Shown here piece by piece: positions 1 through 64,000 of a stretch of 64,000 nucleotides of DNA. The translations under genes were made by a program, and so were the position numbers. This DNA is from Blepharisma japonicum (taxonomy: Eukaryota; Ciliophora; Heterotrichea; Heterotrichida; Blepharismidae): positions 124,001 through 188,000 of the forward strand of contig CATKHK010000058.1 of the NCBI GenBank assembly GCA_949751835.1, written 5' to 3'. Each line of letters starts with the position of its first letter. The stretch's first letter is position 1. The notes beneath the pieces were generated by a model. It was not told the origin of the DNA and did no database searches. It saw only the letters and a list, made by a program, of their open reading frames with translations.

Positions 1-2224
1 TAATAAAAGCAATTTCGCTACCATTAAAAGGCATAACCCATGGCTCAAAGTCTTTCATTTTATTTATTTCTAATTTAGGAACTACAGATGATAAGTTTTG
101 ACATTTTAAATTTCTTGATTCAGTACCGATGTAGAAGGGGAAAAGTTCGGAATGTCCCATAATAAAACCGTCATCTGAAATTATTGCAATGTCACGATTT
201 TCTTTCCTCTGCTCAAAAGAAATCAAAAAATATGCACAGTTATGAAACGCTGTCAGTTTAATTAAAAATTTGCACTCAAATAAGTACCCTTTGATATTTT
301 GAAAAAATAAATATTTGTGTGATTGAAGCTCAATTGTATTACTATCTAACACAAAATCTTTAATATTTTTGATGTGGCAAACATCAAAAGGTTGAGGAAT
401 ATAATTCAGCAGTGAAGTACCAATTATATTTCCTATAGAAGATTTTAGTAGGAGTGAAGCTTTTTCGTTGATATACATAATATTATTATCAGAGCAAGAA
501 ACCAATAAAATTGGCATATCTTTTCCGTAGTTTTCTAAATTTTTTATATTATTTTGCTGATTATAATAATCAAGACCATTTTTTTTCCTATTCATTTTTT
601 CAGCTTCTTCATGACTACTCAATATATTCTCTAAAAATGTCCCATATAATTCATAACCTTCAACATTCTTATATTTATCACAGAGATTTTTGAAATCTTT
701 GGAAAGGTTTATTAAATAATTTGTTGTTCTTTTTGACAAATTCATAATTTTATCAATTCTCGGAGCTTTTAAACAAATCTCTGCCTGAAATTCTATAAGT
801 AAATAACAAAGTTCCTCATCTTGGGTTCTAATCCTACTGAACTCTTTCAAAAATTCTAAATAGCTTGTTTCAGGAAAAGCTTTGCATTTTCGCTTAACAA
901 GCCATGTAAAAAGCCTTCATTCTTGGATTTCTCCTTCAAACGAAGTTTTTGCATTCCCAATTTTCGACAATTTTACCCTTGCTAATCTTTCATCTTTTAT
1001 TATTAAAAGACAATAGTTAAATTCCCATATCACAAAAAGCTTATCTTTTTGAAATTTATTTGCTTTTCAAAAATTCTTGAATAAATCTAACATCCAAAAT
1101 TTATCTTCATATTGTTTATCTATTAATAAATGTCTGAATTTTCTTTCGAACTCAAACTGATCCTTTGGACACTCTTCACTGTCTTTTAGCATTTGATAAT
1201 TCCGTTTAACCACCCTATTTATCAGGAAAAATACTATTGGCTGCAGAAAAATTGAAAAAACTATTATAATTGAAGCACTATCCAAGAGCTCTCCAAAAAT
1301 AAAAAATAACAATGTAGTAGTAATTATGCTGAGTTTGTAAACTTCAATTATATTTTCAAGGACATTGAAATAATGTAAAACTGTTATCGATTCAAAAGTC
1401 AACAAAAGTGAAAACAATAATAAGACGGATTGATGAATAATTGCTCTCTTATCCACAAAAGTCACATATGAAATACAAACAAGAATGTAAAAAAGTCTTT
1501 TTTGCATGTCTATAAAAGAGCATGATCTTGATTTTAAATTTTTTTCTGGGTGGGCATGTTGAATATCACAAAAAAAATATTCACAATATAAATTAATTGA
1601 TATTAGAATTGCAAGTCCAATAACTGAAAGAAACACTCCCTGGAAGCCAAAATTAAGGATAGAGGAAGATAATCCATCGTATTCTTTTATCACTTGAGTG
1701 CTGATTATTGAGTATTTTGCTATCATTAATAGAATCATTGTACTTGGGATCAAACATACTGTTGTGAGCAATGTTGCAATTTTACGAGGTCAAAACGATA
1801 TATAAATTGGTAAATCTTTCTTTAAGTAAATAAAATATCCAAAAACTGTAAACGATGCTAAGCACAAACCTAAAAGAGAAAGCGTCCCATAAAAACAAAA
1901 ATTCATAATCCCAAAATTTGCACAAGCACTATCATAGCTTGCCCATCCTAATAGTTTTCATAAGATTATGTATGAGTTTCAATCACTTACCTTCATGCTT
2001 GGGTATCAAGCTAGTGATATTACCTGAAGAGTGAAAATCGTATTTATTAATATTTCGTAGCCGAGCTGGATATTTGGCTTTGTTTTCCTGTTATACTTTA
2101 CTTTAAAAAGCTGACAAAAAAAGCCATAAAAGTAGTTCTTAAATTTGCTTGAAAAAAGTGACTGAGAAAGAAAGCTGTGAAGGTCCTTGACCTCATTCTC
2201 GATTGATCTAAAAGTGCTCGCCAT
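1..2224 (-). CDS. Paralogue 1: multi-pass membrane PAS protein (C-terminus beyond window)
   Basis: The gene starts at ATG 2224 (MASTFRSIENEV) and is open to the left window edge, giving residues 1 to 741 when TGA is read as Trp; I checked the reading frame of the left 1.1 kb codon by codon and met no TAA or TAG. It holds the eight N-terminal helices, the helical middle region and the PAS-like domain from about residue 563. It is a close copy of paralogue 2. Both carry an unusual loop (CDIQHAHPEKNLKSRS in place of HSH and KARS), and both lack a few residues at the first PAS strand (SCSDNNIMYINEK against SCSDENFGTIVYINEK in paralogue 5). The two introns of the family lie beyond the edge. Function is inferred: membrane sensor. 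Confidence 0.9.
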
Positions 2225-3457
2225 AATATTAATGACAGAATTTGATATAATGGTTTAATCTAAATATACTTTATTAGTAAATTCATTTTTGACTCTAGAT
2301 GATACTTCAATTACAAAATAAACAAAAACTGCTTCATTGCGAAATATTTACCCTAAAAAATGATATTTAAATCGCACAGAAATGCTGATTTCATAAATTT
2401 AATGTTGCATTGAAATTTAAATCTTGCTCAATCAACTTGGCTTTGGCTTAACCTGAACTTTTTGTGTTTATACACACAAAAGATATCCTGGCCAGACCAA
2501 TACCTTTGGATTGGGCCAAAAACCTTGAATTCTTTAAGAAAAATATAAATTTTTTCCTTTTTTAATTGGAAATTTTTTTATTCCCTGTTAAAAAAGTGAA
2601 ATAAGCAGAATGCATTAATTTTATTTAATCTATTTGAAATATAGACTTTTTAAGCGCGAACTATTACGCTAATACATTTGAGATTAAGAGCACTTGGTCG
2701 AAAAAGAATATTTTAAATATTCAAAATTTTAGTATTATAAGACTCACAACTTAAAAACTCATGATGATCTCATAAAATTCAATGAATTGATCTTATAACT
2801 TATAAATGTAATGATTAAGTTAATGGATTAATTATTATTGTCTAGAGGAAAAGAACTCTTTATTTCTGCTTTAGCTGCATATATAGTTATTTTTTAAATC
2901 AATAAATAGAAATTTTATATTATAAAATTTGTGTATTTTTATTATTTGAAATGCTTTAGAATATATCATTTTCGTATTCCTACCATCTATTAGAGCTCAA
3001 AATTTATATAAAAATTTCTTTGAGCAAATTATTTTGATATCTCAAAATTTAACTCCAACTATGCATTAAATTCTAATATTTTTTTGAATTATAAAATCAA
3101 GAAAATTTAAGAACTTTTTGGCTTTTCTTGTAGAATTAGAATATAATTGGTGGTAAATTATACAATTATTAGAATTAAATGAAAATAATTTTAAGTATTT
3201 TACAGCTTATGATGTAAAAATAGATTTTTTTATGCCCATTTTTAGAATAATAAAAGATCTTGCTTCAAGCTCCTAGGTAATCCTTGATTAAGTCTATTAG
3301 CTTTAGCTTTGTTTTTAAATTTGGTATTTTATTATTGTAAAAAATTTTATTACCTGATTTAAGACAATTAGAATATTTAATGCCAGGCAAATAAAATGAT
3401 TTAAGCTTGGCTAATCCATAGGCGATCATTTTGACATATTATAATTGCCATAGTGCA
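2225..3457. other. Spacer between paralogues 2 and 1
   Basis: A 1.2 kb AT-rich stretch without a supportable gene. It should hold the promoter of paralogue 1 at its left end and the 3' end of paralogue 2 at its right. I see two short hairpins: a 7-bp stem (TTTGTGT/ACACAAA) at 2461-2480 and a CCAAT/ATTGG stem at 2497-2514. Neither resembles a tRNA. Confidence 0.7.
2365..2383 (-). repeat. 19-bp element shared upstream of paralogues 1 and 2 (copy 1)
   Basis: On the plus strand ATTTAAATCGCACAGAAAT, found again at 7707-7725. It lies 141 nt before the start of paralogue 1 but only 32 nt before that of paralogue 2. It may be duplication residue, a control site, or both. Confidence 0.6.
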
Positions 3458-6400
3458 TTATTCTGAATCCATTGGTAAAATCTCTGGCAAAATCGAGAGC
3501 ATGTTGAGCTGTTTGATTTGCCTATTAAAATATAGCAAATAATAGAAAATATATAACATAAACAGCGCTATTGAGTATGCCACTGTTGTATTTATGACCA
3601 TATCTAACTCATAATTTATAAGATTTTTTGAATCACGATCTGCTAGTAGAAACTCTTGGCTTATTTCGTTTTGAATAGCTTTTACTTCTGCAAGTATTGA
3701 AAGTATCTTTGATGTAGGAATAAATTCATAATATCCTTGATTTTCACTATCTTGAATTATGGCATTTATCGCAGCTTCTGTTCCATAATCAAGGATCCTT
3801 TTATCGGAATCTATTTTATTATATATTCTGACTCTCAATTCTTTTGACATTAAATTTTTTAATTCACTTTCTCTAAGTTCTTTATTTTTAGATCTCAAAA
3901 AACTTGATGCCTCATTCACGCTTGTTCAGGCATTTGCATATTGAAAATATTGTGGGACTTTTTTTTGAAAGTAATGGGAATAAGTCTCTCTGGAAAGCAT
4001 TGATAATCTTCTAAGAGTGGAACGCCTTATATTAAAATTGCTAAGGAGCTTTGGACGATTTATCATTAAATCTTCGCATTTTGGATACATGTAGAGGGAA
4101 ATTAAGAGATAGTAAGAAGCAGCAATTACGAAAAATATCATAAGTCTTCAGCTATATTGCAAATAAATAGAAGTTTTTACTTTTCTTTTTATTCGGTTTC
4201 CTGATATTTCCATATTTAAATCTGAACTATAATCAATTCCATGAATGAGAACCAGCCTATCTATGGCTGAACTCTTCAGTTTAACAAGTGCATATTGAGC
4301 ATTTTTCAAAATAAAATTCCAAAATTCGTCTTGCTTTCGTGATACCAAAATTATATATCCTATAATAACCAAAACCAGAGCTCCAAGTGCGAAGGACCCA
4401 AATATTAACAAACTATTTATATATGTGCCAGTTTTTTTTACTCTTTCTATCTCACAATCTACAATCCCATTCATTGTAGAATTTGCACTTTCGTAAAGAT
4501 GTCCCGCTCCATTAACTAATACAAATCTGATATATTTTAGGTAGGAATCATTGTTGGAGACGGCACTAATTATGCCTTTACACTAAATAAAAAATACACT
4601 TAAAATGATTTCTGATACTGCATCATATAAATTCGAATATTTTACTCTTGGCTCATAAACGTCGAAATAGATTAAAGGGATAGCAGGATTTGTAACAATT
4701 TTTGAGACTGAACAATAGCTTCACTGGTCAAAATCCTTAAAAATTGTTCCTTGGATAGATTCTAAGTCTGCTATTAAATTTTGCAAATCATTAGCCATAT
4801 CATTTTTTTGTTCATCAGATACATTTATCGACAGCTTTAAGCCAGTAAAAAGCCTTACATAATCTGCAGATAGTCCAAGATCATATAAAAGCTGTCCTAA
4901 ATGTTTGAAAGAGCTCAGAGACGTTGTATATGACACATCACTGATCATATACCCCAGAATGGCGCCAACTACTACTATAACTGAGGACATCTAATTTATT
5001 CTTACCACAATAAATAGCACAATCTGAAGAATTTTGATTTTTCTTTTGGATTCTGAAAGGAGATTTTGAGCTTGCTTTGAAAATTTTGAGCCAACTGAAG
5101 ATTTTGAATAATCTTCAGTGCCCGATTTTTTGTCATCATTTTTTGGAGAAGGGTCTTCGTTTCTCCTAGAACTTATTTCTTTAGTCTGAAAATCTTCATT
5201 AGTATAAACTTCTGATTCAAATGAAGGTTTTGGTAAAAGTCCCATATTGCTAACTGAGAGAAATTGAATTTGGGTGCTTTTTCTACCTTCTTCTTCTATT
5301 TGAGATTTGTCGAAATCAAAAGATATATCTAGCTCTGCAAAATGCGTTAATTGGTCTGGATCGATTCCTTCTTTTCAGTTTTGGATTTCTTGATCATCAT
5401 GAAGAATTATAAATTCACGGATAACGGTGGACTTTATTTGTTTTTTTGTTTTAATAAAAGCAATTTCGCTACCATTAAAAGGTACAAGCCATGGCTCGTA
5501 GTCTCTCATTTTATTTATTTCTAAAAATGGAACTACAGCTGATATTCTTTGTCCTTTTAAGAATCTTGATTCAGTACCGATGTAGAAGGGAAAAAGCTCT
5601 GAATGCCCCATAATAGACCCATCATCTGAAATTATTGCAATCTCACGTGCTGCTTTCCTTTGTTCAAAAGAAATCAAAAAATATGCACAATTGTGAAACG
5701 CTGTCAATTTAATTAAAAAATTGCACTCAAATAAGTATCTTTGGATATTTTGTAAAAATAAATATTTATGCGATGGAAGTTCAATTGTATTGCTATCTAA
5801 TACAAAATCTTGAATATTTGTGGTGTGGCAAACGTCAAAAGGCTGAGGAATAAAATTTAGCAATGAAGTGCCAATTATATTTCCTATTGAAGTTTTTAGT
5901 AGCTGTGAAGCTTTTTCATTGATATACATAATATTATTATCAGAGCAAGAAACCAATAAAATTGGTATGTTTTTCCCATAGTTTTCTAATTTTTTAATAC
6001 TATTTTGCTTATTATAATAATCGAGTCCATTTTTTTTCCTGTTCATTTTTTCAGCTTCTTCATGATTACTTGCGATATTTTCTAAAAAACTCCCATATAA
6101 CTCATAGCCTTCAGCATTCTTATATTTATCACACAGAATTTTAAAATCTTCGGAAAGATTTGCTAAATAGTTCGTTGTTCTTTTTGATAGATTTATAATT
6201 TTATCAATTCTTGGAGCTTTTAAACAAATCTCTGCCTGAAGTTCTATCAGTGCATAGCAAAGTTCCTCATCTTGGGTTCTAATTCTACTAAACTCTTTCA
6301 AAAATTCTAAATAGCTTGTTTCAGGAAAAGATTTGCATTTTCTCTTAATAAGCCATGCAAAAAGCCTTCATTCTTGGATTTCCCCTTCAAACGAGTTTTT

Positions 6401-7675
6401 TGCATTCCCAATTTTCGACAATTTTACCCTTGCTAATCTTTCGTCTTTAAATATAGAAAGGCAATAGTTAAATTCCCATATAACAAAAAGCTTATCTTTT
6501 TGGAACTTATTTGCTTTTCAAAAATTCTTGAATAAATCTAATACCCAAAATTTATCTTCATGATCGCTATCTATTAATAAATGTCTGAATTTTCTTTCGA
6601 ACTCAAATTGGTCCTTTGGACACTCTTTGCTGTCTTTTAGCTTCGTATAATTCCGTTTAACGAGCTTATTTATCAACAAAAATACTATTGGCTGCAGAAA
6701 AATTGTAAAAACTATAATAATTGAAGCGCTATCCAAGAGCTCACCAAAAATAAAAAATAAAGATGTAGTAGAGATAATGCTAAGTTTGCAAGCTTCAATT
6801 ATATTTTCAAGGACATTGAAATATTGCAAAAGTTTTATCGATTTATAACTCAAAAAAAGTGAAAACGAAAATAATACGGATTGGTGAATAATTTCTGTTT
6901 CATCCACGAAAGTTACATAAGAAATGCAAGCGAGGATGTAAAAAAGTCTTTTTTGCATGTCTAAAAATGAGCATGATCTTGATTTTAAATTTTTTTCTGG
7001 GTGGGCATGTTGAATATCACAAGAAAAAAAATCACAATATAAATTAATTGCTATCAAAATTGCAATCCCAATAATTGAAAGGAACAATCCTTGAAAGCCA
7101 AAATCAAGGATAGAGGAAGACAATCCATCATATTCTTTTATCACTTGAGCGCTGATTATTGAGTATTTTGCTGTCATTAATAGAATCATTGTACTAGGAA
7201 TTAAGCACACTGTTGTGAGTAGAGTAGCAATTTTACGAGGCCAAATCGATATATAAATTGGTAAATCTTTTTTTAAGTAAATAAAATATCCAAAAACTGT
7301 GAATGATGTTAAGCACATACCTAAAAGAGAAAGTGTCCCATAAAAACAAAAATTCATTACTCCTAAATTTGCACAAATGCTATCATAGCTAGCTCATCCT
7401 AATAGTTTTCATATGATTGCGTATGAGTTTCAATCACTCAACTTCATGTTTGGATACCAAGCTAGTGATATTATCTGAAGCGTGAAAACGACGTTAATTA
7501 ATATTTCGTAGCCTAGCTGGATATTTGGCTTTGTTTTTCTATTGTACTTTACCCTAAAAAGCTGACAAAAAAAGCCATAAAAGTAATTCTTAAATTGGCT
7601 TGAAAAAAGTGACTGAGAAAGAAAGCTGTGAAGGTCCTTGACCTCATTCTCGATTGATCTAAAAGTGTTTGCCAT
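3458..7675 (-). CDS. Paralogue 2: multi-pass membrane PAS protein, TmcB-like (1395 aa)
   Basis: Exons are 7675-5006, 4990-4598 and 4582-3458, with stop TAA. Read with UGA as Trp the frame is unbroken. Helices lie at about 57-74, 110-133, 148-172, 195-215, 243-258, 263-281, 296-313 and 317-336; the loop CDIQHAHPEKNLKSRS is at about 219-234. The motif FEFERKFRHLL is near 356-367, followed by a helix-rich cytosolic stretch, then a PAS-like domain at about 564-675 ending in AFHNCAYFLISF. A Ser/Lys-rich linker leads to helix 9 (about 881-905), an outside domain, helix 10 (1078-1103), helix 11 (1169-1188), a second outside domain and helix 12 (1348-1372). Eight plus four helices put PAS and both ends in the cytosol. 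The TmcB/TmcC relationship is my inference from the layout. Recent duplicate of paralogue 1. Confidence 0.93.
4583..4597 (-). other. Intron B of paralogue 2 (15 nt)
   Basis: GTATTTTTTATTTAG, phase 0, between SEIILS and CKGIIS in the first outside domain. Confidence 0.9.
4991..5005 (-). other. Intron A of paralogue 2 (15 nt)
   Basis: Coding-strand sequence GTAAGAATAAATTAG, phase 0, between VLFIVV and MSSVIVV inside predicted helix 9. Its in-frame last codon is TAG. Confidence 0.9.
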
Positions 7676-7706
7676 ATTATTAATTACAGAATATAATTAA
7701 AAACTT

Positions 7707-8977: not shown

Positions 8978-11900
8978 ATGCTTCATACCACAAAAGAAGT
9001 AGTTGATTATGAAGAAGACAGCGGGTTTTTAGAGAAGTCTCTTTTCTCTAATAAATTGAAAAATACAGTTTTTGGATTTTTTGGGCAGCTTTTTGAGGTT
9101 AAATATAATCCAAAAATAAGAATCAAGCAGCAGCTGTTATATGAAATCTCCATAAACATAATCATAACCCTTCAGCTAACTTCTTTGACATGGTACCCCA
9201 ATTTAGAGGTAGCAGATTGAAAATCCTATACAACTTTCTGGCAAGGCATAGGAGTTATAAGCTACGATCAGGTGTGTGCTACATTTGGGGTGATGGATTT
9301 TTGCTTCTATGGGACGATTTCCCTAATTGGAGCATGCGTTTTATCTTTTGCTATCTTTGGTGCCTATGTTTATTTAGGCAAAAAAGCACCTGAATTAGTG
9401 ATCATAATACCCAGAAAAATAGCTTTAATGCTATCTACTGTTTGCCTAATTCCTAGTTCCATGATTTGTCTTATGATTACAAAATATTCTTTAATAAATG
9501 CAAGCTATATTGAAGAATATGACGGGAAAACTTCATCAAGTAGCCTAAATTATGGAATTTATGGCGCAGTTTTTGCTTTGCTTTGCATTATTATTTTATT
9601 TCCTATAATTTTGCTTTCAGAGGCTTTCACTTGCGATATTAAGCATTCACATGCAAATAAAAATATAAAAGCACGATCTTCAGCAGAATTAGATATACAG
9701 AGACGGTGTTTTTATATGTTTATGTGTGTTTTGTATGTTTCTTTTGGCTCAAAGCACACAATTATTCATCAAGTTATTGCTTTAGCATTTGCATTATATC
9801 TGCTTTATAAGTGCAATGTATATATGCAGTTTTATAATTATTTAGAAAATTCTATTCAAGCCTGCAAAATGGCCTCGATTTCGTCAACTTTGATAGTTTT
9901 TATTTTTGGGCAAATTATGAATAATGCACTTGTAATAGTGATTTTTAATTTATTTGTCCAGCCACTGATGATGATGTTTTGTATTCATATTGTAATAGTG
10001 AATTATAAGAAATTGCAGCATAATCAGAAAATTCCTGAAAATCAGTTTGAATTTGAGTGCAAAATTCGACATTTACTAACCGATAAAACAATTGAAGATA
10101 AATTATCTGTTCTCAAATTATTTAAAAAATACTCAAAGTGTAGTCATTTTCAAAAAAATAAACTTTTTGTGATTTGGGAATTTAATTTTTGTCTTTCAAT
10201 ATTAAAAAATGAAAGACTTGCGAGAATTAAATTATCGAAAATCAGCCAATTTGAGTCTTCATTTGAGGGGGACATACAAGAATGGAGGGTTTTTTGCTGA
10301 TTAGTCCAAAGAAAATGCCACTCTTTTCCAGATACTATTTATCTGGAATATTTAAAAGAATTTGCTATAATAAAAAGGCAAGACGAAAGGCTGTGCGATT
10401 TTTTAATAGAACTACAAGAAGAATTTTCTTTAAAAATACCCAAAATAAGAAAGCTTGAATTTTTAGTAGGAAAAGCATGCTCTTCTATAGAAAACGTTAA
10501 TAAAAGGTATAAAAACTTAATAGAAAAATATAAGAATATTGAAGCCTATGAAAATTATATCAGCTTCCTCCAAAATATCATGAGTAATCATGAAGATGCA
10601 GACAGAGTAAATAAAAAGAAAAATGGCCTTGAAGTGACGATCCAAAGAAACGAAAATCAAAATTTAGAAAGTTATGGGAAAAATTTAGCCATAATTTTAG
10701 TGACTTGCACTGATAAATCTTTTGGTAAAATTGTTTACATTAATGATAAAGCTATGAATATTTTGGGGATTACTTTAAATCATGCTTTGGATTCTCTAAT
10801 ATGAAATTTTATTCCTTCACCCTATGACAAACTTCACGAAAAATTGATGAGAAATTTTTTACACTCCTCGAACACTATAGAAGTTTATAATGATTGACTA
10901 TTTTTACAAGACTATAAAGGGTTTTTAATAGAGTGCAACATCATGATAAAAGCTACAGCATTTCATAATTCTGCATATTATTTAATTTCTTTTGAACAAG
11001 TAGCTGCTAAGAGAGAAATGGCTCTAATGACAGAGCTTGGGATAATTATTGGCCATACTGAGCATTTCTCTGAAACTGTTTTGCATTCTGAAACAAATTT
11101 AAAATGCAAATATATACAAAAAGTGCTCCCAGGCTTTGATATGCATAAGATAAATGAGCCTATAAACTTAAAAATAAAAGGCCAAGACAGACTTATAGTG
11201 TATATAGAAAAAATGCTAAAATCCACAACTTTCCATGCTATTTTTGTAATAAACGATGAGGTAGAAATAAAAAAAATTAAAGAAAATGACGATAAGCAAA
11301 AAATTATTTATTCAGAAACAGCTGAATTTGAAAATAAAAATTTTGAAATAATGAAGTTCCAATACCAATTTGATAGAATTTTTGATGGGAAAAAAACAAA
11401 TTATTTAAATGAAAGCTCTACGCTGGATTTAAGCCCAGCACTTAACGATAATTCATTTTATGGCGATGCTAGTAGCAGTACCTTTTCTATATTAAAAATA
11501 AGTATTTTTTAATTAGAACAATCACAAGATTTGGTAATGCAAACTAAGAAAAAATTGAGAATTCTGCAATTAATATTTTTACTATTGGTAAAAATAATTT
11601 AGATTATTTCAGCCATTAGTTCAATGGCTGCAATATTAGTTTATGTAACAAGTGACATTCCTTTAAGCACTTCCCCTACAATTTTTACACATTTAGGAGA
11701 ACTCCTGTATGATTTAGGGCTTTCAGCAGATTTTTCGAGTGCTTTAGATATAGAAATGCAAGCGAATTCTCAATCTTTGGATACAAAAAAGCTAGAAAAT
11801 ACAATTCTTTCATTAATTGATATTCAAAACAGCATCATGTCTGATTTTGATGACCGAAAATATTGTAAAGCTTATGATATAGCAACAGACCATAAAATTC

Positions 11901-13120
11901 CATTATGAAACTTTGAGGAAAAGAAGGCAAAAATAGTAAACGAAAATATTTATAACATGATAGGAGATTTTATTTATCATGTAAAAATTATTTAGGGACA
12001 AAATATGCTTAGTGATGTTAAATCAAATAAAATAAATTATAAAGAGCATGCAAATTTTTTGGTTATAAATGGCCTAGGACTTGCTTATAAGTATGCTGAA
12101 AATGCTATCAAGGACATAGAAGAATGTGAAATAGATAAAATAAAAATGATAGGACTGAATGTCGTGCTATTTTTAACAGCTGGAATTATTGCTACTTCTA
12201 TATGAGTTGGGATAATTTTTTGGTTTATTGTCCTATTGTCCAGAAATTATGATAAATTTTGAAATTTTTTGCTAAATAATGCGCAGTTTTCTTTGCTATT
12301 ATTGAAAAGTGCAGTTATTGATAGACTATTGACAATTCATGGTATTGAATATAAAAGTGACGATAATATTAGCAGAAATTTTTACAAAATCAAAAGAAGG
12401 GTTGCTACCAAAATTTATATAAAATATACAGTAAGGCTTCTGATTTTTTTTGCTATCACACTTTCTTATTATTTATTAGTCGAGCTATATTTATACCCTG
12501 AATGCGAAAGATCCTTAATAAATCGTCCTAAGCTGTTAAATAATTTCAACTTTAGACGATCCTTATTATCAAGAGTTTCAATTTTTGCTAGGGAAATCTC
12601 ATCTTCATACCTAAAAGAAACATTCCCAACCATATATGACTTCGCAGACCCTAAAATTATGTTAAATAATTCTGCAACCATCCTTTTTGACAAAAATGAA
12701 GAATTAAGAAAACAAGAATTTTCGAATTTAATGTCAAAAGAATTAAGAGATGAAATATATAAAGAAATAAAAGGAAATCCAGAGCTGAGTTTTGGATCAT
12801 TTACAAGTATAGAAGTCGCAAAATATGACCTTTATGATATTGCTAATAAAAATGTTTCAAAAGAGGAAATGGAAGAGCTTTTATATAATCTTACATGCAT
12901 TGAAAATCAAATAAATTTGGAGTATCAAATGGCTAACCATGACTCCAAAAACATCATTAATTCACAAGTAAAGGTGATTATTTATGCATCTGTTTTTTAT
13001 TCTGTAGCTCTACTTGTGCTGTTTTGTTTTTACTATTTCCCTTCAATAAATAAAGAAATCAAGCAGCTCAATTTATTATCAATCCTCCCAAGTATTTTGC
13101 AAGTCGGATCCGATCTCTAA
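8978..13120 (+). CDS. Paralogue 3: multi-pass membrane PAS protein with a third intron (1365 aa)
   Basis: Exons are 8978-11501, 11517-11587, 11603-11980 and 11996-13120, with stop TAA. It starts at ATG 8978 (MLHTTKEVVDYEED), 14 nt after a CATATAAAA box. The PAS-like domain begins near residue 563 (VTCTDKSFGKIVYINDKA). The family motif FERKFRHLL is changed to FECKIRHLL. It has the two usual phase-0 introns (after residues 865 and 991) plus a phase-1 intron after codon 841 in the linker, which no other complete member has. Removing it turns a premature TAA into the family's ILQ-preceding helix (SILKIKQSQDL). It lies back to back with paralogue 2 and tail to tail with paralogue 4. One of the more divergent members; role as for the family, inferred. 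Confidence 0.92.
11502..11516 (+). other. Extra intron of paralogue 3 (15 nt)
   Basis: GTATTTTTTAATTAG, phase 1. Removal joins SILKI to KQSQDLV and restores the approach to the RILQ helix. No other complete member has an intron here. Confidence 0.85.
11588..11602 (+). other. Intron A of paralogue 3 (15 nt)
   Basis: GTAAAAATAATTTAG, phase 0, in helix 9, at the site shared by all complete members. Confidence 0.9.
11981..11995 (+). other. Intron B of paralogue 3 (15 nt)
   Basis: GTAAAAATTATTTAG, phase 0, between DFIYH and GQNML. Confidence 0.9.
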
Positions 13121-51100: not shown

Positions 51101-52339
51101 ATAAAAAAGCCTCATGTCCCATTCTGAAATTTTGATGGGGATATTCCTGTAATTGAATATGACAACCTCTGAAATGTAATAACTAAAGTATCAAATACTG
51201 TATTTTTTATTTAGGGAAGACATATGCTGAATGATATTATGCTAAACCAAGGGTTTTCAGAGCATACGAAATTTTTATATATGAATTGCCTAACATATAT
51301 TTTTGAATATACAAACAAGACTGATAATGACATTGTAAATTGTGAAATTGATAGGGTCAGAGAAACAGGAGAAAATATTAATTTATTGATAATCCTGGGT
51401 AGCTTGATTTTTTGGCTTTTATTTTTTGTGATTATTTGATTTATTATCTTAGCTTCAAAATCACATGATAAATTTTGAAATTTTGTGCTGAATAATGCTC
51501 AGTCATCAATGTTCAGACTTAAATCTTTAGCAATTGAGCGATTGCAAATAGTACATAGAACCAACTATCCGCTTGAAGAAAATTTCACATTATCAATAAG
51601 GAAAAGTTATAAAGTAAAATCAAGTTTATACATAAATTTTATATGAAGAACAGTAATATTTTTGCTTGTAGCAACTTCCTATTATTATATGCTGTATTTT
51701 CATATGCTGCCAAACTGCAAATATTTGATAGTAAAACGTCCAATGTTTTTAGATAATTTTAATATCAGGCGAGCTTTAATATCAAGGCTTAATATGTTTA
51801 CTAAAGAAATCATGAATCCTTATATGATAACTATTTTTAAAGATTCTTATAATTTCCCTAACCCTCATATATCTGCAAATCATACTGCGGAACTATTGGA
51901 GCTAAAAATAGAAGAGCTAGAAAATGAAAATTTTTCAGTATTGATGTCAAAAGAATTATTGCAAAAAATTTATGAAAATAATAAAGAAATTCAAAACAAT
52001 ATTTTAGATTATGGCAGCTACGCTGCCAATAACGACATTATAAACGGAATACAAGATTTAGCCTTATCAAATGCATATAATACGGCTGAGTTATATCAAT
52101 ATACAGCAAAAGTTAAAGCAGTTCAAAATGAGCTTTGAGAAGAGTTTTTACTTGCAGATCATGACTCTAAAAACATTATAAATAGCTACTTAGGGACAAT
52201 AATCATTATAACAGTTCTTTATTCATTAGCTATTGGCTTGCTGTTTTTCTTTTACTATATTCCATATTTTAATTGCTATGTAAAGAAACTTAACAGATTT
52301 TCTGTAATTACAAAAATATTGGGTGTAGATACTCAATAG
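48170..52339 (+). CDS. Paralogue 11: multi-pass membrane PAS protein (1379 aa)
   Basis: Exons are 48170-50791, 50807-51199 and 51215-52339, with stop TAG. ATG 48170 begins MSKHCLTCDKDGNEF. The last 200 bp read through one TGA (NELWEEFLLADHDSKNIIN) to helix 12 and end at 52339. The loop is CDMKHSHHSRNVKARS. The PAS-like domain starts near residue 563 (SCSEENFGSIIFTNEKAAH); its closing motif is ALYNQSYYLISF, so the His of the family's AFHN is absent. Introns follow residues 874 and 1005. The outside domain has LYSLEAIPD, as in paralogue 4, its sister. Confidence 0.92.
50792..50806 (+). other. Intron A of paralogue 11 (15 nt)
   Basis: GTAAGAAAAATTTAG, phase 0, between VLFIV and MCSAIVIMIG. Confidence 0.9.
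51200..51214 (+). other. Intron B of paralogue 11 (15 nt)
   Basis: GTATTTTTTATTTAG, phase 0, before GRHMLNDIM. Confidence 0.9.
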
Positions 52340-52964: not shown

Positions 52965-55900
52965 ATGTCTGGCAACCTAAATATCATAGAAAAAGAAAAC
53001 GCTGATATTCAAGGATTTTTATCACAATCATTATTCTCAAACAAAGTAAAAGAGTACCTTTATGGGTTTTTCGGGCAACTTTTTAAAACTAAATATAATC
53101 CCAAAACAAAACTTCGAATGCAAATTTTTTATGAAGTAGTAATCAATATTATTATTGTCCTCCAATTATCACCTTTATGGTGATCTCCAACCATGAAAGC
53201 TGCTGGATGAAGCTCCTATATAGATTTCTGGCAGGATATTGCATATGCGAGCTATGACGAAATATGCGCTTATTTTGATATTATGGATTTTTGTCTATTT
53301 GGGACTATTATTTTGATAGGCTCATGCATATGCTCATTTTCGGTCTTTTGGCTTTATATATACATGCGAAAAGACGTCCCACTAATTATCTCCATTTTAC
53401 CAAGAAAAATTGCAATGCTTTTAACTACAGTTTGTATAATCCCCAGCTCAATGATGTTTGTAATGGTTATAAAATATTCTACCACAAAGATTGATATTAT
53501 TCAAGAATATGCAGGAGGAATTTCTTCCAATGTATATCAATATGGGCCTTTAGGCGTTTTTCTTGGCCTTTTCCATATCTTTGCATTGCTTTTTGTTAAT
53601 TGTTTTGCTGAAACTTTTACATGTGATATACGGCATTCTCATTCAAAAAAAAACTTAAAGGCAAGGTCTTGCGCTTGGTTTGACTTAGAAAGAAGAATAT
53701 ATTATATATTGATGACTATTTTATACGTTATTTTTGGGAATTCAGACTATTCTTTTGCTTTCCAAATTTCTGTCTTTTTTTTATCGTTTATCTTATATTT
53801 GCGCATTATTTATTCTATGCAATATTTCAACATAATAGAAAATTCCATTCAAGCTTGCAAAATGATTTCAGTTTCTTCATCAATTTTATTTTTTATTTTT
53901 GCCATAATTGTTGACAATGCAGAAATTTTGATGTTTTTGACAGTAATGCTAACTCCAATTTTGTTTTATTTTACGATAAGAATAATCAGAAGAAGATATA
54001 ATAACTTACCAAATTTATATAAAATACCAAGAAATCAATACCAATTCGAAAGAACTTTTAGGAATTTGTTAGTAGAAGGGAAACCTGACGATAAATTAGA
54101 AGTTTTAAGTCTATTTTTGGGATACTGAAGGGAAAGCCAATTTATTAAAGACAAACTTTTTGTGATATGGGAATTTAATTTTTGCCTTTATACATTAAAA
54201 GATGAAAGATTAGCAAGAATAAAACTCTCAAAAATTGCTAATGCAAAATCTTCGTTTGAAGGAGATGTGCAAGAATGAAGATTATTTAATTGGCTTGTGA
54301 GAAAAAAGCACACTTTATTTCCTGATACGAATTATCTGGAATATTTGAGACAGTTCAGCAGAATAAAAACTCAGGATGAAGAGCTTTGCTTTATTTTGGC
54401 TGAACTGCAGGCCGAATTTTCATTGAAAAGGCCAAGACTGGAGAAATTAGTAAACTTAACGAAAAGGGCAGCGCAGCACATATTTTATATATCTGATGGA
54501 TACAAAAATTTGGTAGAAAAGCACAAAAATCCTGAAGCTTATGAAATTTACTCAAGTTACCTTGACAATATACTAAATGATCAGGAGGAAGCAAATTTTA
54601 TTTTAAGAAAAAAAAACGGCATAAATTTTTCTAACCTCCGTAATGAAGCAAATAATTTAAAAAATTATGGTAAAGATCTAGCAGCAATTCTTGTGTCGTG
54701 CTCAGTTGAGTTTTTTGGGAGAATTGTATATATAAATGAAAAAGCTTCCCAATATTTAAAAACATCAATTGGGAATATCCTTGGCTCCTCAATTATTAAT
54801 TTTATTCCTCAACCTTTTGATGGAAAGCACGAAAGTAATATGAAAAGATTTATTGCGGAATGTCAGTCAATAGATATTCCTTGTCATGAAAAATTTTTCT
54901 TGCAGAATCATGGAGGATTTTTATTTGAGTGTAATATGCTAATTACATTAACTGCGTTCCATAACTGCTCTTATTTTTTAGTTTCATTTAAGCCTAGGCC
55001 AATTATAAGAGAATTAGCAATAATTACTGATGAAGGTACTATAATAGCCCATACTGAAATGTTTTCATTTTATTTAGAATATCAAGATACGCACTTAAAA
55101 AATAAAAATATTTCTGATGTTATTCCTTTGTTTTCAATAGAAAAAATGCATGATTTTGAGCCTTGACTCATTTCATTCAGAAACACTGAGCTTATTCTTG
55201 TAAAAATTAAAAAGCAAATGCTGTCTACTACTCTTAATATAATTATGATAATTCATGACGAAAAAGAAATCTTTAAATGAAAAAATGGGCAACACCATGA
55301 AGCAATTGCACAAATCGGGACGTTTCAGATGTTCGAAGATGAAGAATCTTGCTTTTTGACTGCAGATAATTTGAAAAAACCATCAGGAGTAAAATTTCAT
55401 ACAATAAGCACTATTTCTGCAATTACAAAATCTTTAGAGAAAAATGAAACTGAATCATTTGCAATGCTTCATGAAAAAATTGAAGAAGAGGGTGCAAGCT
55501 ATGAGAAAAAATCAGATAATTCTGATAATTTTTCAAAGGTATCTGTAACAAAAAAAAATAAAAATATCTTGTCAAGCCATGCGCAACAACTAATTTCAGA
55601 CTCAATTAAAAAAATTAGGATTTTGCAATGGATATTATTTTTCATCGTAAGTAATATTTAGATATCATCGGTGATTGTCATTGTTGCTGCAATTTTAGTT
55701 TATATGGAGAATGATGTGTCACATACAAATGCATTAAGCTCTTTTAAGAAATTTGGGCAGCTAATATATGATTTTGGGTATTCAGCTGATTTAGCACTTA
55801 CAATAAATAGATTAATTGCAAAAAATAGCAATGATCTTATCAGTGATGCTTTAGAAAACTTAAAAAACTTAAATCAAGATTTTGAAATTATTCAAAATAA

Positions 55901-57194
55901 CATATTAGATGATTTTAGTCAATGATCTGAATGCGATAATCAACAAATTGTTTACAAATCAATAATTCCAATATGAATTTTTGACCATAAGGAACCAATT
56001 GACCTGTATTATAATCTGTATGATGCTATAGGAAAATTTATATATAATGTATTTTCTATTTAGGGAGAAAATTTATTATCCGATATTGAAGGAGGAAAAA
56101 ATTATTATCAAGATCATGCAAAGTTTTTGTTTATGAATGGACTTGGAAGTTTGTTTTATTATTCAAATATCACAATAGATGGACTAGTTACATGTGAAAT
56201 TGACAGAGTAAAAAGCACTGGGAGCACTATAAACATTCTTTTACTATGTGGATTCTGTGCTCTTGGGATTTTGATATTAGTGATTATGGGCTATATCATA
56301 CTTTTATCAAGAAAATATGATGAATTTTGAAATTATGCACTAAATAATGCACAGTGGCCAATTTTTAAGCTAAAATGTGCGGCTATAGACAGATTAGCTA
56401 CCATACATGGAATTGAAAAAACTATCGAGACAGTATTAGAAGAAAAAAGAAAAAGCAGTCATAAAAGAGAAGTCAAAGGTATTTTATATTTACAGTACTT
56501 TTTTAGATTAATGCTGTTTTTTACTATAGCAGCATCTTATTATTTATTAATGTTCAGCTATTTATACCCAAATCTTGACACAATGATGAGGAATCGTCCT
56601 CTTATTCTCGATAATTTTATAATTCGCAGATCCTTATTATCAAGAGCAACTGTGTTTTCTAGGGAAATTTTATTAAATTATACGTATAAATATCTGCCAG
56701 AACTTTATGCTTTCCCAAATTCAGAATTAATTTTAGACAAAACATTATGCCAGCTCAGAGAAAGAAATAACGAGATTCGAGAAAAAAAATATTTAGATAT
56801 ATTATCACATGAATTAACAGAAAAAATGTTTGTAAAAAATAACTCAACTTATTTATGGCTCAATAAAGGGACTCAGCCAGCTTTTGACATGATGATTGAT
56901 GATACAGAAAATTTTGAAAACTTGGGAGAAGTTACAGATGATGAGTGGCTTTTGTTTTCAAAAATGGGAAAAACAATACAAGATGAAATTGGGGAAGAAT
57001 TTGACTTAGCTGATAGGGACTCAAAGGATGCTATTCAACAGCAGCTGAAAATTATTATAGACACAACAGTTATTTATTCAGTAGCTCTTTGTGCATTATA
57101 TTTCTTTTATTATTTGCCTTACTTTAATTTTCAAATTAAAGAGCTCAAGCTTTTTTCAGTGTTACCTAAGATTTTGCCAATAGAGCATAATTAA
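52965..57194 (+). CDS. Paralogue 12: multi-pass membrane PAS protein (1399 aa)
   Basis: Exons are 52965-55646, 55662-56048 and 56064-57194, with stop TAA. ATG 52965 begins MSGNLNIIEKENADIQGFL. The loop is CDIRHSHSKKNLKARS. The PAS-like domain starts near residue 565 (SCSVEFFGRIVYINEKASQ). Introns follow residues 894 and 1023. The SPLW variant after helix 1 and the ALSSFKKFGQLIYDFGYSAD form of the outside domain place it with 5 and 10, although it is on the other strand. It runs in the same direction as 11 and converges on 13 across 179 bp. Confidence 0.93.
55647..55661 (+). other. Intron A of paralogue 12 (15 nt)
   Basis: GTAAGTAATATTTAG, phase 0, between LFFI and ISSVIVIVAA. Confidence 0.9.
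56049..56063 (+). other. Intron B of paralogue 12 (15 nt)
   Basis: GTATTTTCTATTTAG, phase 0, between KFIYN and GENLLSD. Confidence 0.9.
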
Positions 57195-57373
57195 ATTATA
57201 TAGATGTTTATAATAAAATTTTTATACCATTAATATATTGAATATTTTAATAGATAGCAGCAATATTAAATTTGCAAAAGTTGCTAGTTTAGATGATAAT
57301 AATAATTTAAATTTGTATAAAAACCCTTAAATTTTAATTTATGACTAAACAAATTCTACTTTGAAATACTGGA
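57195..57373. other. 179-bp convergent gap of paralogues 12 and 13
   Basis: The tails of paralogues 12 and 13 face each other here. The gap is AT-rich with no gene and no obvious hairpin; it must serve both 3' ends. Confidence 0.65.
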
Positions 57374-60300
57374 TTATTCGGTTCCTAACCTTAGGATTGT
57401 CGGCAACATATTAAACCGATTTAGATATCTTGATTGATAAGTAAAAAATGGCAAATAATATAATAAAAATAGGCTGCACAATGCAACTGAATAAATAACA
57501 GTAACAATTATTATCACATTCAATTGATGATTGATAATGCCATAAGAATCGTCATCTGCCATTTGAAATTCAACCCCTACTTCATTTTCTATTTCCCCAA
57601 GAATTCCTAAGTATATAATCATAGCTTGGTCTGGGATTTTTGTTTGGTATGTTATATAAATTCCATCATAAATAGTCAATTTTATTGCTGTTTCTGAGCC
57701 AAAATACAGCTCTGACCCAAAAATGCCACAGCTCTCAAATAATCTTCGCTTGAGCTCACTCGAAATCATTCTCATAAACTCTTTTTCTCTTATTTCTTTC
57801 GTCTTGTCTAAAAGAATTTGTGAAGTAATATTAAACATTTCTTTTGAATTTGGAAAATCATAGGATTTTGGGAATAATTTTATAAATGAAGGATTATAAA
57901 CATCTCTTGCAAAAATAGAAAGTCTTGACACTAATGATCGTTTTATATTGAAATTGTTTAGCAATTTCGGCCTATTTCCCATATAATTAGCGCATTCTGG
58001 ATATAAATGAAAATAAACCAAATAATAATATGACGCAGAAATCATAAAAAATACCAAAATTCGTCAGGCGTATTTTATTTCAATTTTTGTCCTGACTTTT
58101 TTTCTGTCATGCAATTTCCTTACGTTGAAATTTTCTTCTGGGCTTGTTTCTTCATTATGAACAAGAATGAGTCTGTCCGTTGCTTCACTTCTTAATTTTA
58201 CTAAAGGAATTTGTGCATGCTCCAGCATAAAATTTCAAAATTCGTCTTCTTTTTTGGCGGCAAGCAAAATAAATCAAAGGATTATCATAACTAAGCCTGT
58301 AAAAATAGAGAAGCCAGAAATTAGTAGAGTGTTTATTTCATAGCGGAGGGTGCCAATGTGATCAACTTCGCACTTTTCTAAGTTTGAGATGGTGTGATTT
58401 AAAAAATCATAGGTTTTGCCAATGCCATTGGCTATTATAAATTTTGCATGCTGCATGCTCGTTTGGTTGCTTTTGGCTGAGGAAATAACAAGTTTTAGCT
58501 GAATAAGAATTACATGATAATTGAATAAAGAAATCATGTTATAAATATTTTGATAAATAAGCTGAGGATTTTCATTATCAAAAGATCATAATGGAATCAC
58601 AGGCTTCTCAGATACTTCTGCTGCTGTGCAAAATCGTCAATAATTGAAATCAGAACGAATATTAAGCTGTATAATTTCTAACTCATCTATGATTGAAGAT
58701 AATGCTTGGATGCGCGGAGAAATATCAACTGGAATCGTTATTTCTTTATTTAGCTTCCTCACAGTATCAGCAGAAACCCCAAAATAATATAAAATTTCTC
58801 CAAGATTGTAAAATATTTTCATAGAAGACGTAAGGTCCACATTATTTACTACGTTTACTATAATCGCAATCACCACAACAATGACTGTCAAAATCTAATT
58901 TTTCATTACTACAAGAAATAAAACCCATTGGAGGACTCTGATCTTTTTCTTTGCATTATAAATTAATTTTTTTGCTTGTCCTATATACGTTTTACTTGAT
59001 TTTAGTGTAAAAGCATTTGGACGATCTCCTGCATTTGACTGATTTTCTATTAAATTTTTGCTTTCGTCTTCATCAGATTTGAATGTCAATTCTTTATCTG
59101 GATTTTCAATTTCTTTTTCAACAATTATTGTTGAAACTGTGTTGCTATTAATTGAATGTTGCTTCTTAAAAACTTTTTGCATATATGGCATTATTTTAAG
59201 GCTTTCTAAACGTGATAATTGCTCTTGGTCTTTTCCTTCTTTTCATCTTTCTATATCATTTTTATCATGAATTAAATACAAGTAATGAAGCATACTTGAA
59301 TTAATTTCTTTATTTATATATGCCAGCGCAATTTCTTTATCGCTAAATTTTATAACCCAAGGTTCATATGCTTTCATTTTCTCTATCTCCAGAGATGGTA
59401 TTATTTCAGAAACATATAAGTTTCTTATATATTTTGTATTTATTCCTAAATATTGTGAAAAATGTTCAGAATGACTTAAAACTATTCCTTCTTTAGAAAT
59501 TAAAGCAATTTCATTTTTTGTTGCTTTTGGCAAAAAAGATATCAAGCAATAAATATCATTATGAAAAGCGGCAAATTTTATCATCAGATTGCACTCGATT
59601 AAAAAGCCATTCTGTGTTTGTAAAAATAAATTGCTATGGCTTTGAACTTCTGTTTTATTAGAATTTTCTAAAAAATTCTCAGCCAGGCTTTTATGAGAAT
59701 CATTATAAGGAAAAGGTAAAAAATTAAAAATAGATGAGCCAATAATATCTAAGGCAGGAGTTCGCAGAGTTTCAGCTGCTTTTTCATTAATATAGATGAT
59801 AGAACCAAAAATATTCATTTCACAAGATACAAGAATGAGCCCAAGGTGGCCTCCATAACGATCTAAGTTTTGATTTTCATTTCTCGAACCTGAATAATCA
59901 AAGCCATTTTTCTTTTTATTAATTATATCAGCTTCTTCTAAATCACAGGAAATATCTCTTAAAAAACTTGCATATGCTTCATATGAATCAACAGCTTTAT
60001 ATTTATCTGTAATTTTTTTATATTTTGTGCGTACTTTATCTAAACAAACAGAAGTCTTACTTGCCAAATTGATTAAAATCTTCATTCTAGGATTTCTAGA
60101 AGAGAATTCTAGCTGTAATTGTATGATTAAGTTGCATAGTTTTTTATCTTGTGCCTTAACTTTTCCAAATTCTAATAAATATTCCAAATAAAAAATTTCT
60201 GGGAAAAATTCTTTTCTCTTAGTTTTTAGCCAACTCTGGATCCTTCACTCATGAATATCATTTTCAAATGAAGATTTGCATAGTTTTGCTTTTCTTAGAA

Positions 60301-61540
60301 TCATTCTTGCTAATCTTTCATCTTGAATTATGCAATAACAAAAATTAAATTCCCACAGCACAAAAAGCTTGTCTTTTTTAAAACCATCGATTTTTCAATA
60401 TTTATTGAATAAATTCAAAACTTTTGTTTTATCAGCTAGATTTGGATCTGTCAATAAATGTCTAAAATTTCTTTCAAATTCATATTGGCTAGAAAAATGA
60501 TTTATTTGTTTTTTCAGGTTTTTGTAACTTTTGAATGTGAGATGAAAAATAAAAAATAGAATAGGAGGGTGTAAAATTAAAGCAAAAATTAAGATAGCTT
60601 GAGAATTATCCATAATATAACCGAGAATAAAGCTTAAAAGGGTTAAAGATAATGATCCTACTTTGCAAGCTTGAAGAGCATTTTCAATAGGATTAAAATA
60701 TGGTAAAAATGAGATAATTTTTATCCATAAATAAATTGTTACGGCAAACCATATAATTTGATTATAAATAGCATCTTTTTCTCCGAAAAAAACATAAGAA
60801 ATGCACATAAAAATACTAAGAATCCTCATTTCCAAATCAAAATATGTGCAAGATCTTGCTTTTAAATTTATTTTAGATTTAGAGTGTCTTATATCACAAG
60901 AAAAAACCTCTGATAATACAAAAATCGGAATTAAAACAATTAAGCAAAATATTGACAAAAATATCCCAAGGGTGCCATAATTCAAATCTTTACCACTTGT
61001 GTACCAGAATTCATGGGCAAAATTAGAAATTATGATAGAATTCTTCAAAATGACAAGCAGAATAACATTTGCAGGAACTAAACAAATTGTTATAATTATT
61101 CCTGCAAATTTTCTTGAGAAAAGTAATATCGAGCTTGGTGGCTTTTTTTTAAGATAAAAATAAATCCCAAATATAGCAAAAGAGCTTAGGCATACTCCTA
61201 TTGAAGAAACTGTCCAATAGAAACAAATATCCATAATTTCGTAGCATCCACAAAAATCGCTATAATTTACGAATCCAATCAGTTTCCAAAAAACTGAATA
61301 TGAACTTCAGTCCCTTATATCTAAATTCGGGTACCAAATCAAAGAAATCAGCTGCAACACAAAAATTAAGCTTGAGAAAATTTCATAAAGTAGCTGCTGT
61401 TTCAGCTTTATTTTTCCGCTGTATTTCATATCAAACAATTCACCACAAAATGCAAAAATGCACGTTTTAGCTTTCTTCATAGCTTGAGAAACTATTCTTT
61501 CCTCTGCATGACTTGTGCTACTATAGTTATGAAAGAACAT
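57374..61540 (-). CDS. Paralogue 13: multi-pass membrane PAS protein (1378 aa)
   Basis: Exons are 61540-58910, 58894-58514 and 58498-57374, with stop TAA. An earlier in-frame ATG exists at 61600. I chose 61540 (MFFHNYSSTSHAEERIV) because the distance to the conserved first block (IFAFCGELF) is then 28 residues against 30-31 in other members, and a TATATAAAA box and an A-rich leader lie just before it. The loop is CDIRHSKSKINLKARS; the second His of HSH is Lys. The PAS-like domain starts near residue 559 (SCEMNIFGSIIYINEKAAE). Introns follow residues 877 and 1004; the second ends CAG and has no stop codon, so the frame is open with or without splicing. A divergent member. Confidence 0.9.
58499..58513 (-). 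other. Intron B of paralogue 13 (15 nt, no stop codon)
   Basis: GTAATTCTTATTCAG, phase 0, between LFNYH and LKLVISS. It ends CAG and encodes VILIQ if kept. I place it by alignment with the second intron of all other complete members (compare IYH before GQN in paralogue 3), since an ORF search alone would not reveal it. Confidence 0.75.
58895..58909 (-). other. Intron A of paralogue 13 (15 nt)
   Basis: GTAATGAAAAATTAG, phase 0, before ILTVIVVVIA in helix 9. Confidence 0.88.
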
Positions 61541-63260
61541 GGAATTTTTTATTATTGTTTTTATATAAGTCAGCTCTACCAGCCTACCGTTTAAATCCAT
61601 TCTTACGCTTATAAAAAATAAAAATTTTTTAGATAATATAAAATCTTTGTTAGAAAACTATCATATTCCGCAAATAAGAAAATAAAATGTTGAGATGTTT
61701 CAAGATGCAAATTATTGATTAACATTTTGAAGTTAAATATCTATAGCATTATAATTCTTCTATAATTCATTTAATAGGAAATGATTTAGGAAATTTGAAT
61801 TATGAATGTATTTATATATACTTAGTCACGCTAATACTTTGCCAATTATTTGACTATAAAAAAGAGATAATTATTGTATTAAGAGGTTAGAGAAATTAAT
61901 AATTATAACTCAAATATTAGCTTAGAGAGTAGGCAATTTTTAGAAAATTTTGTGTTGCCTTTACTTTATTGTCTTTGAAAAGTTTTCTTTCTTTTGTTTG
62001 TTTCTCCTTCTTCAAGAAGTATTTTCTTCTACCTTTATGTGTGATTGAAAATGATATAAATGCTCCGTAGTTAATGCTTATAACAGATAATTGCTTTTGA
62101 TAAATTTTCATGTTCAAATTAATTGAGCTTCTCAGTATTGAAAACTATTACCTCTGGATGTGTTATAAATATCATTTTGTTAAAAATAATGACAGTCTTT
62201 TAATGCTTTCGTAAGATTTGTGGCAACCTTTGCTTTAGACAAAAATAGAAGGATTAAGTAGGGTCATAGCGATTATATGAAAAATTTTTTATTAGAATTA
62301 ATTTGCTACTGAGCTTCTTATTTTATTCCAAGTAGTGCCAAACTATTTCTTTTTCTTTTTTGAACACACACTTTCACTCATCTTCGCTGATTTCTTTAGA
62401 CTTAATATAAATAAGAAAGATCAGGTACGATATTCTAGAACAAAAATAAGATCTCTGATGGCTCCCGACTTCATTTCAAGTAGGATTTCTATTATATACA
62501 TAAATTGCTTAATATAATTTAATTTTTGTACGCTCTGCGTTTAATTAACAGCTAAAAAATAAGCTCATCTTTTTGAAATTTGTAATAAATTTCATTTTTA
62601 AAAACATTTTGTCAGCAATAACTTCACTGCTCAAAACTGAATTGCTGAATAAAAAATTTATGTTAGAAAATAGCAATATAGGTGAAGCTCTATTTTTAGG
62701 TATTATGAATGCTAGGGTTTTTTTTAAATAATTGATGCATAAAAGGAGACTCTTCTTATAAATATTGAGTTGATTTTTTTATGATTTATTGTTTTTAAAA
62801 TGCCTATTATTTCGTAAAATTTGAATGGCGGCTTATTTTCAGCCGATATAGAATTAGATAAATAACTGTTTTACACCCAAATAATCTAAATTTTTGTTCT
62901 AATTTTTTACATTATTTATCATATGTAAGCTATAATCTATAATAGACATGAGCTTCCAGAAATATTTTTAAAATTATTAATCCCACATATCCTCAATACA
63001 AATCTTTAATTAAAAGATATGATTGAAAATAAATCAGGAAACCTATTTTTTTAAATATGAATTATATCTGATTGTATATGAAATATGCAAAAGATTATAA
63101 GACATAATGAAAATCTTAGGAAAATCCAGTAATTCTTAGCATCTTATATAAAATTTCATCAATAATTTCATCGAAAACATTAGAAAAATCAGTTTCCGTC
63201 CATTTTCGGCTATTACTGGCACAGCTCTAAAATAAATGCATAAAATAAATTAGTTAATTC
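61541..63260. promoter_or_regulatory. Divergent spacer between paralogues 13 and 14
   Basis: The largest spacer, 1.7 kb, between two starts that face apart. It holds a 64-codon minus-strand frame from ATG 62111 to 61917 (MKIYQKQLSVISINYG) that I regard as chance, and a CGGCT/AGCCG hairpin near 62827-62843. No RNA gene is seen. Both promoters should lie at its ends. Confidence 0.5.
61559..61568 (-). promoter_or_regulatory. TATA-like box before paralogue 13
   Basis: TTATATAAAA on the coding strand, 18 nt before the ATG at 61540 and followed by an A-rich leader ending ATTCC. It favours 61540 over the earlier in-frame ATG at 61600, because a promoter or leader would otherwise fall inside the coding region. 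Confidence 0.35.
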
Positions 63261-64000
63261 ATGCTTACAGAATTTGCAGTCGGAGAAAAAGAAAACAATG
63301 ATTTTCACGAATTTTTATCTCATTCAGTTTTTACTAGTAAGTGAAAAGAGTATGTTTATGGCTTTTTAGGGCAAATTTTCAAGGAAAAATACAATCACAA
63401 AACGAAGTGGCAAGCTCAGCTATTTTTTGAAATTTTGGTCAACTTAATATTGATGCTTCAGCTTTCAGCGTTAACATGATATCCAAATATGAACCCGGCC
63501 GGCTGAGACTCATTTGTAGGGTTTTGACAAGGAATTGCATTTGCCAGCTATGATGAATTTTGCGTTGACTATGAAGCCATGGATTTTTGTTTTTTTGGGA
63601 CAGTTTCTCTGATCGGCGCTTGTTTAGCATCTTTTGCTGTCTTTGGACTTTATATTTATTTGGGTAAAGATATTCCAGTAATTGTTGCAATTTTACCTAG
63701 AAAGATAGCAATGCTACTAACATCAATATGCATAATTCCAAGCACGCTAATACTCACTCTTGTAATAAAATATTCTTCGGTAAATAAAAGTATTATTGAA
63801 GAATATTCAGGAGCAGTTTCCTCTGAAATTTGCAATTATGGGCCTGCTGGGATTGCTGCTGCAGTCTTTTGCCTTCTAATTTTGATTTTTATAAATTATT
63901 TCAGTGAATCTTTCTGCTGTGATATGAAGCACTCCCATTCAAAAACCAACATAAAAGCCAGATCATGTGCAGAAAATGACTTAAATAGAAGATGATATTA
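63261..64000 (+). CDS. Paralogue 14: multi-pass membrane PAS protein (N-terminal part only)
   Basis: ATG 63261 begins MLTEFAVGEKENNDFHEFL and the frame is open to the window edge (about 246 codons) when TGA is Trp, for example at TSKWKEYVYGF, GWDSF and GFWQG. It holds helices 1 to 4 and the loop CDMKHSHSKTNIKARS. The region FCFFGTVSLIGACLASF, PRKIAMLLTSICIIPS and NYGPAG is nearest to paralogues 5, 10 and 12. The PAS part lies outside the window. Confidence 0.88.

Follow-up and report, generated by a model that had tools for sequence, protein, structure and literature searches.

What has a ciliate genome stored in a 64,000-nucleotide (nt) stretch that holds fourteen copies of one large gene? 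The stretch (the window) lies on contig C58 of Blepharisma japonicum, and we place at about 60% the probability that it forms the central part of a tandem array whose genes encode TmcB-type membrane sensors, in a Blepharisma-type ciliate. For large ciliates, little is known at the gene level about how chemicals, mates, and gases are sensed. Numbers without a prefix are window positions, and those prefixed ‘C58:’ are contig positions.

Every one of the 14 genes that overlap the window is a member of a single family, as the original prediction had proposed: 182 of 182 ordered pairs matched by BLASTP (at least 182 bits), against 0 of 196 in a control with shuffled proteins. The anticipated length of about 1380 amino acids (aa) also held, with the 12 complete genes measuring 1365–1404 aa; the other two are cut at the left (G1) and right (G14) edges. 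Pairwise protein identity among the window genes ranges from 36 to 86%. Long proteins can be read across the window only when UGA is taken as Trp and 15-nt introns are spliced out. In G2, our reference gene, both introns are 15 nt long and in phase 0 (intron 1, 4991..5005; intron 2, 4583..4597; minus strand), and each keeps its alignment column in all 12 complete window genes. Intron 2 of G13, located by position, is also 15 nt long, ends in CAG, and lacks an in-frame stop, so that a reading trusting open frames would translate it; G3 carries a third intron, in phase 1, at 11502–11516. UGA read as Trp, a predominance of 15- and 16-bp introns, and CCCTAACA telomeres are features of Blepharisma stoltei in its genome paper (PMC9942806). 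Repeats of CCCTAACA also occur in the present genome (77 forward and 91 reverse three-unit matches, and 0 for the reversed control), and among the matches listed, positions lie near a contig's start or, for contigs of known length, its end. Together these traits make the genus very probably Blepharisma.

Family sequence makes up 83.5% of the window, and just two open reading frames (ORFs) of at least 80 aa, coding for 83 and 96 aa, lie clear of family genes. Rfam and tRNA searches of the window each gave 0 matches. Beside the family, the window holds no other convincing gene.

The array and the family across the genome

The window turned out to cut into a larger object: the array runs from C58:99612 to 243925 (144 kb, 30 loci, 85% family sequence), with the window as its middle, and the original prediction of a 64-kb cluster was too small. 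Its flanks carry dense ORFs without a family match, including a 4006-aa open frame that adjoins the array on the left (C58:87403–99420). An open spliced model longer than 1300 aa was obtained for 26 of the 30 loci (for the 12 complete window genes, by curated models). Locus T4 (C58:114053–115518), left of the window, is an eroded C-terminal family fragment between longer family genes, and T3, T22, and T27 show a frame change; for the first two, this would be compatible with a 16-nt intron. Two further exon-3 matches lie at C58:276–282 kb.

The array is one of several. In the genome of 45.2 Mb and 224 contigs, the Pfam model TPR_TmcB (PF25474; curated cut-off 27 bits) gave at least 146 matches at E ≤ 0.001, 140 of them over the cut-off, in a search that scored 150 of 174 candidates. 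A family count, proposed with the original prediction, thus comes for this genome to at least 146, a lower bound because the profile search lists 24 matches for the 30 loci of the C58 array. Grouped at 15-kb spacing, the matches fall on 38 contigs: 93 lie in 7 arrays of at least five, 30 stand alone, and the rest make up 9 groups of two to four. Along the same lines, a genome-wide search with exon 3 gave at least 110 matches (110 of 184 candidates scored). PF25474 had 0 matches in 14 bacterial and archaeal control genomes, and pattern scans (64 genome-contig and 51 viral-contig matches) confirmed no prokaryotic or viral relatives, though distant ones can escape such scans.

This is a very large expansion of a known membrane-protein family, apparently unstudied to judge from open-licence PMC text, where no title among those listed dealt with this TmcB-type family and none was found for ‘TmcB’ with ‘ciliate’, a description elsewhere being possible. 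The terms ‘gene famil’, ‘tandem’, and ‘receptor’ are absent from the main text of the Blepharisma genome paper (PMC9942806).

The window genes lie on both strands. G1 (2..2224, minus strand) is represented by a 5' part of 741 aa and runs on left of the window to C58:122021; its model stops a few residues before the ends of its relatives, and exon 3, in the part left of the window, carries an in-frame TAA. Also on the minus strand are G2 (3458..7675, 1395 aa; exons 5006–7675, 4598–4990, and 3458–4582), G4 (13198..17391, 1387 aa), G5 (17878..22119, 1403 aa), G6 (22484..26680, 1388 aa), G7 (27090..31259, 1379 aa), G8 (32009..36202, 1387 aa), G9 (37424..41638, 1394 aa, whose true start is possibly 12 codons further in), G10 (42960..47204, 1404 aa), and G13 (57374..61600, 1398 aa). 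The plus strand carries G3 (8978..13120, 1365 aa, with its extra intron), G11 (48170..52339, 1379 aa), G12 (52965..57194, 1399 aa), and the first 246 aa of G14 (63261..64000), which runs on right of the window to C58:191487.

Architecture of the proteins and the PAS1 histidine

The proteins share one order of parts: membrane helices at the N-terminus (about eight) come first, then a TPR block of TmcB type and two PAS-like folds; a variable linker leads on to two units in which a helical bundle is set between transmembrane (TM) helices. In G2 (minus strand throughout), the eight-helix membrane domain spans residues 49–345 (6641..7531), as judged from hydropathy and a low-confidence model, and is followed by a helical block with the TPR match (346–560; 5996..6640; PF25474 at 454–551), PAS1 (561–673; 5657..5995), assigned from PAS profile and structure matches, and PAS2 (674–768; 5372..5656). 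The linker (769–872; 5060..5371) has a mean identity of 18% and a predicted local distance difference test (pLDDT) score mostly below 50. Outside domains 1 (909–1077; 4415..4936, with intron 2 inside) and 2 (1185–1345; 3611..4093) are both predicted helical bundles; two such domains were originally proposed, and they are present as loops between the last four helices. The twelve helices of the original prediction fit about 8 N-terminal and 4 C-terminal hydrophobic helices, but their exact number is less firm: hydropathy alone gives 10–12 peaks per complete protein, and 5 of the 12 complete proteins owe one peak to the PAS core rather than to a membrane helix, which leaves 9–12 likely membrane helices.

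The TmcB and PAS assignments were recovered by profile searches. Among 11 window proteins scanned against Pfam at E ≤ 1, TPR_TmcB matched all 11 and PAS_9 matched nine (best E 2.6e-5); G3, scanned apart, matched both. The genome search placed 10 of the 13 window genes with a TPR block over the PF25474 cut-off, with G2, G5, and G13 not listed. In an hmmscan of exon 1, scored singly for 11 genes (G3 apart from the rest), the scores of G4, G6, G9, G10, G11, and G12 were over the cut-off (28.0–44.3 bits), and those of G1 (25.8), G2 (24.7), G5 (24.0), G13 (22.5), and G3 (26.7) were below it; in the all-versus-all BLASTP, the genes short of the cut-off are still homologous to those over it. The name TmcB presumably derives from a Dictyostelium gene, and we take a multi-helix membrane domain ahead of the TPR block to be a trait of that family. 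For PAS_9, all scores seen for window members fall below the cut-off (best 25.9 versus 27, in G13; none at E ≤ 0.1 in G11), and the singleton L030 exceeds it (32.0 versus 27). The fold of PAS1 agrees with solved PAS domains, a profile of 12 PAS1 domains matching CLOCK (E 0.0061) and Sinorhizobium meliloti FixL (1d06, E 0.008) in the PDB; the PAS-like domain of the original prediction is therefore real. PAS2 met only non-PAS rows in the PDB (E 0.058 or worse), and this second PAS-like fold is thus assigned from predicted secondary structure and one profile match, TIGR00229 in G13, below the cut-off. PAS2 also has a histidine (G2 residue 691, 5603–5605) that is found in all 26 of the array proteins compared. 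When one whole protein was compared with the PDB by sequence, the best E was 0.57.

The same build could belong to a channel or transporter, with the eight-helix part as the pore and the PAS, TPR, and outside helices regulating or assembling it. The roughly eight N-terminal hydrophobic helices speak for this, as does the lack of an enzyme domain (no kinase, cyclase, G-protein module, or other enzyme was found among the Pfam matches of the 11 proteins), and PAS domains regulate some channels. However, two weak negatives point the other way: the sole transporter-like Pfam row in the 11 proteins was CcmB, at E 0.047 and below cut-off, and a profile of exon 1 had 0 PDB matches at E ≤ 0.1. We regard a pore function as unlikely.

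PAS1 carries a histidine (G2 His617, codon 5825..5827) that aligns with the second histidine of the FixL segment MPEPYRHEHD, i.e., His194 by 1d06 chain numbering, which is the heme ligand, the proximal histidine in helix F, in FixL (PMC10765370). This residue is present in 12 of 12 window genes and in all 29 C58 array loci with PAS1; of 26 distinct members drawn from other contigs, 20 have it. Four loci stand outside the count: L002, L005, and L006 are other PAS proteins (no alignment for L002 and L006, no hit for L005), and T4, also unaligned, is a fragment that lacks PAS1. L007 and L008 recur as L030 and L031, and each was counted once. The six exceptions, where another residue occupies the place, are the two genes sampled on C38, the two on C57, and single members on C18 and C45. 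The histidine is thus found in none of the four sampled members of the C38 and C57 arrays (L032–L035), although L034 (C57) has a histidine three places further on, which makes its loss less sure there. The pattern suggests that these two arrays are separate subfamilies, and members with and without the histidine offer a built-in control for a heme test. FixL Arg200 is not kept, the aligned place varying among the family’s PAS1 domains; heme is not thereby excluded, since FixL Arg200 variants still give heme spectra (PMC10765370). A heme-PAS subfamily is possible, and we take the histidine as a lead on heme binding and not as a finding of it. PAS domains without heme may carry the same histidine motif.

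LOV domains, by comparison, carry a flavin-binding cysteine in their motif. In all 12 PAS1 domains, the segment aligned with the consensus GSSIMNFIP has no cysteine; PAS1 was accordingly rejected as a LOV light sensor, and a sensor of that type is unlikely.

Duplication and selection among the copies

A tree of the 26 array genes joins both neighbours (T6/T7, T11/T12, T13/T14, T20/T21, T25/T26, and T28/T29) and non-adjacent sisters (T9/T16 and T8/T30), which points to a mixture of old and recent duplications. Distant singletons on C54 (a 1727-aa ORF) and C6 have the same order of parts, with weak but clear similarity (G10 exon 1 versus the C54 singleton, E 8e-20; G2 exon 3 versus the C6 singleton, E 1e-6), so the build would be older than the arrays.

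The closest pairs are under purifying selection: by a simple count method, the ratio of nonsynonymous to synonymous rates (dN/dS) was 0.14 to 0.24 in the 14 closest of 325 pairs, 12 of which have a dS of at least 0.97. The most conserved soluble parts are the TPR block and PAS1 (51%), with the outside domains at 37 and 40% and PAS2 at 38%. Positive selection on the outside domains was considered and is not seen in the dN/dS of the closest pairs. In G1/G2, one region has a ratio above 1, due only to a near-zero synonymous rate over 52 codons. In the same pair, about 76 codons (inner loop and TM11) are almost free of synonymous differences, compared with a dS of 0.33 overall, and the longest exact shared stretch, 77 nt, also falls between these two genes (C58:122021–123142 and window 3458–4582). 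The low-dS stretch is possibly a gene-conversion tract.

Many divergent, surface-type copies in arrays would also suit cell–cell or mating recognition, in which the copies would be surface identity markers and not environmental sensors, and gamones are used in Blepharisma conjugation (PMC9942806). Yet the 14 closest pairs are under purifying selection, the outside domains are not hypervariable, and no upstream k-mer of 7–9 is strongly enriched, i.e., there is no shared promoter motif hinting at special expression; we judge this explanation very unlikely. There is an equally slim chance that the expansion is mostly neutral, dosage or drift having preserved copies of a single housekeeping membrane protein. 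Tandem birth-and-death has left one clear fragment (T4) and three frame-changed loci, but dN/dS lies far below 1, residues are invariant across deep paralogues, and most array loci keep their long open models.

Proposed role and comparison with known systems

The family is probably sensory. In the sensor reading, the protein would sit in the membrane with the TPR and PAS blocks on the inside, and each TM–helical bundle–TM unit would take an outside signal and pass a change down its helices, in the manner of bacterial chemoreceptors and NarQ. This movement, carried through the attached membrane helices that flank a short inner loop, would reach the cytosolic PAS pair and TPR block, which may add an inside input such as redox, a gas, or a small molecule. 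Because no enzyme is attached to the chain, the output would be handed to partner proteins, which might relay the signal from the TPR block. A repertoire of such sensors could have arisen by neighbour duplication, after which, with purifying selection acting overall, change fell chiefly on the linker, PAS2, and the outside domains. For the surface-sensor repertoire of the original prediction, the TmcB-type TPR block, the PAS1 fold, and the receptor-like predicted bundles argue in favour, whereas its ‘mating, light or chemical’ signals were a guess. The TmcB-type build also suggests how to test the function of the family.

The genome has 87 guanylate/adenylate cyclase matches, frequently paired at a spacing of about 1.5 kb and clustered locally, for example on C29, C40, C70, C86, and C106. 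Cyclase output was considered and set aside, a by-eye comparison of the listed places having shown no cyclase match closer than 25 kb to a TmcB match.

A bolder and doubtful proposal is that the family is a main environmental sense, built on a class of eukaryotic receptors, over 146 genes strong, in which two chemoreceptor-like outside bundles are joined to a heme-bearing inside PAS. One protein would then read both outside signals and the oxygen or redox state, with C38 and C57 as subfamilies that lost heme.

Among known systems, Tar, NarQ, Vc1313, Adeh_2942, and the NIT region of NasR appear to share the TM–helical bundle–TM layout and the predicted fold; for the two outside domains, the predicted helix bundles resemble those of bacterial chemoreceptors and of nitrate sensors, a likeness of fold only and with weak statistics. 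These bacterial receptors differ in that there is no sequence match, two units stand in one chain of the window proteins, and no kinase, HAMP, or methyl-accepting chemotaxis protein (MCP) signalling tip is among the Pfam matches of 11 window proteins. The outside part had 0 matches in a viral fold library at E ≤ 0.001. The heme-PAS oxygen sensors FixL and DosP resemble PAS1 in fold and in the histidine at the FixL proximal-ligand place, but the window proteins do not keep FixL Arg200, have no histidine kinase, and are only candidates for heme. With the TmcB family the TPR_TmcB block is held in common; the Pfam model spans this block alone, and the window proteins add a pair of PAS-like folds and a pair of outside domains predicted to be helical. 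Finally, ciliate G-protein-coupled receptors (GPCRs) likewise form a large membrane-receptor repertoire in heterotrichs (PMC9960496). No GPCR family is among the Pfam matches of 11 window proteins, which differ from GPCRs in having about 12 helices together with PAS and TPR blocks. The largest set in that survey is the 123 of Stentor coeruleus (PMC9960496), which the present family, with at least 146 matches in one genome, exceeds.
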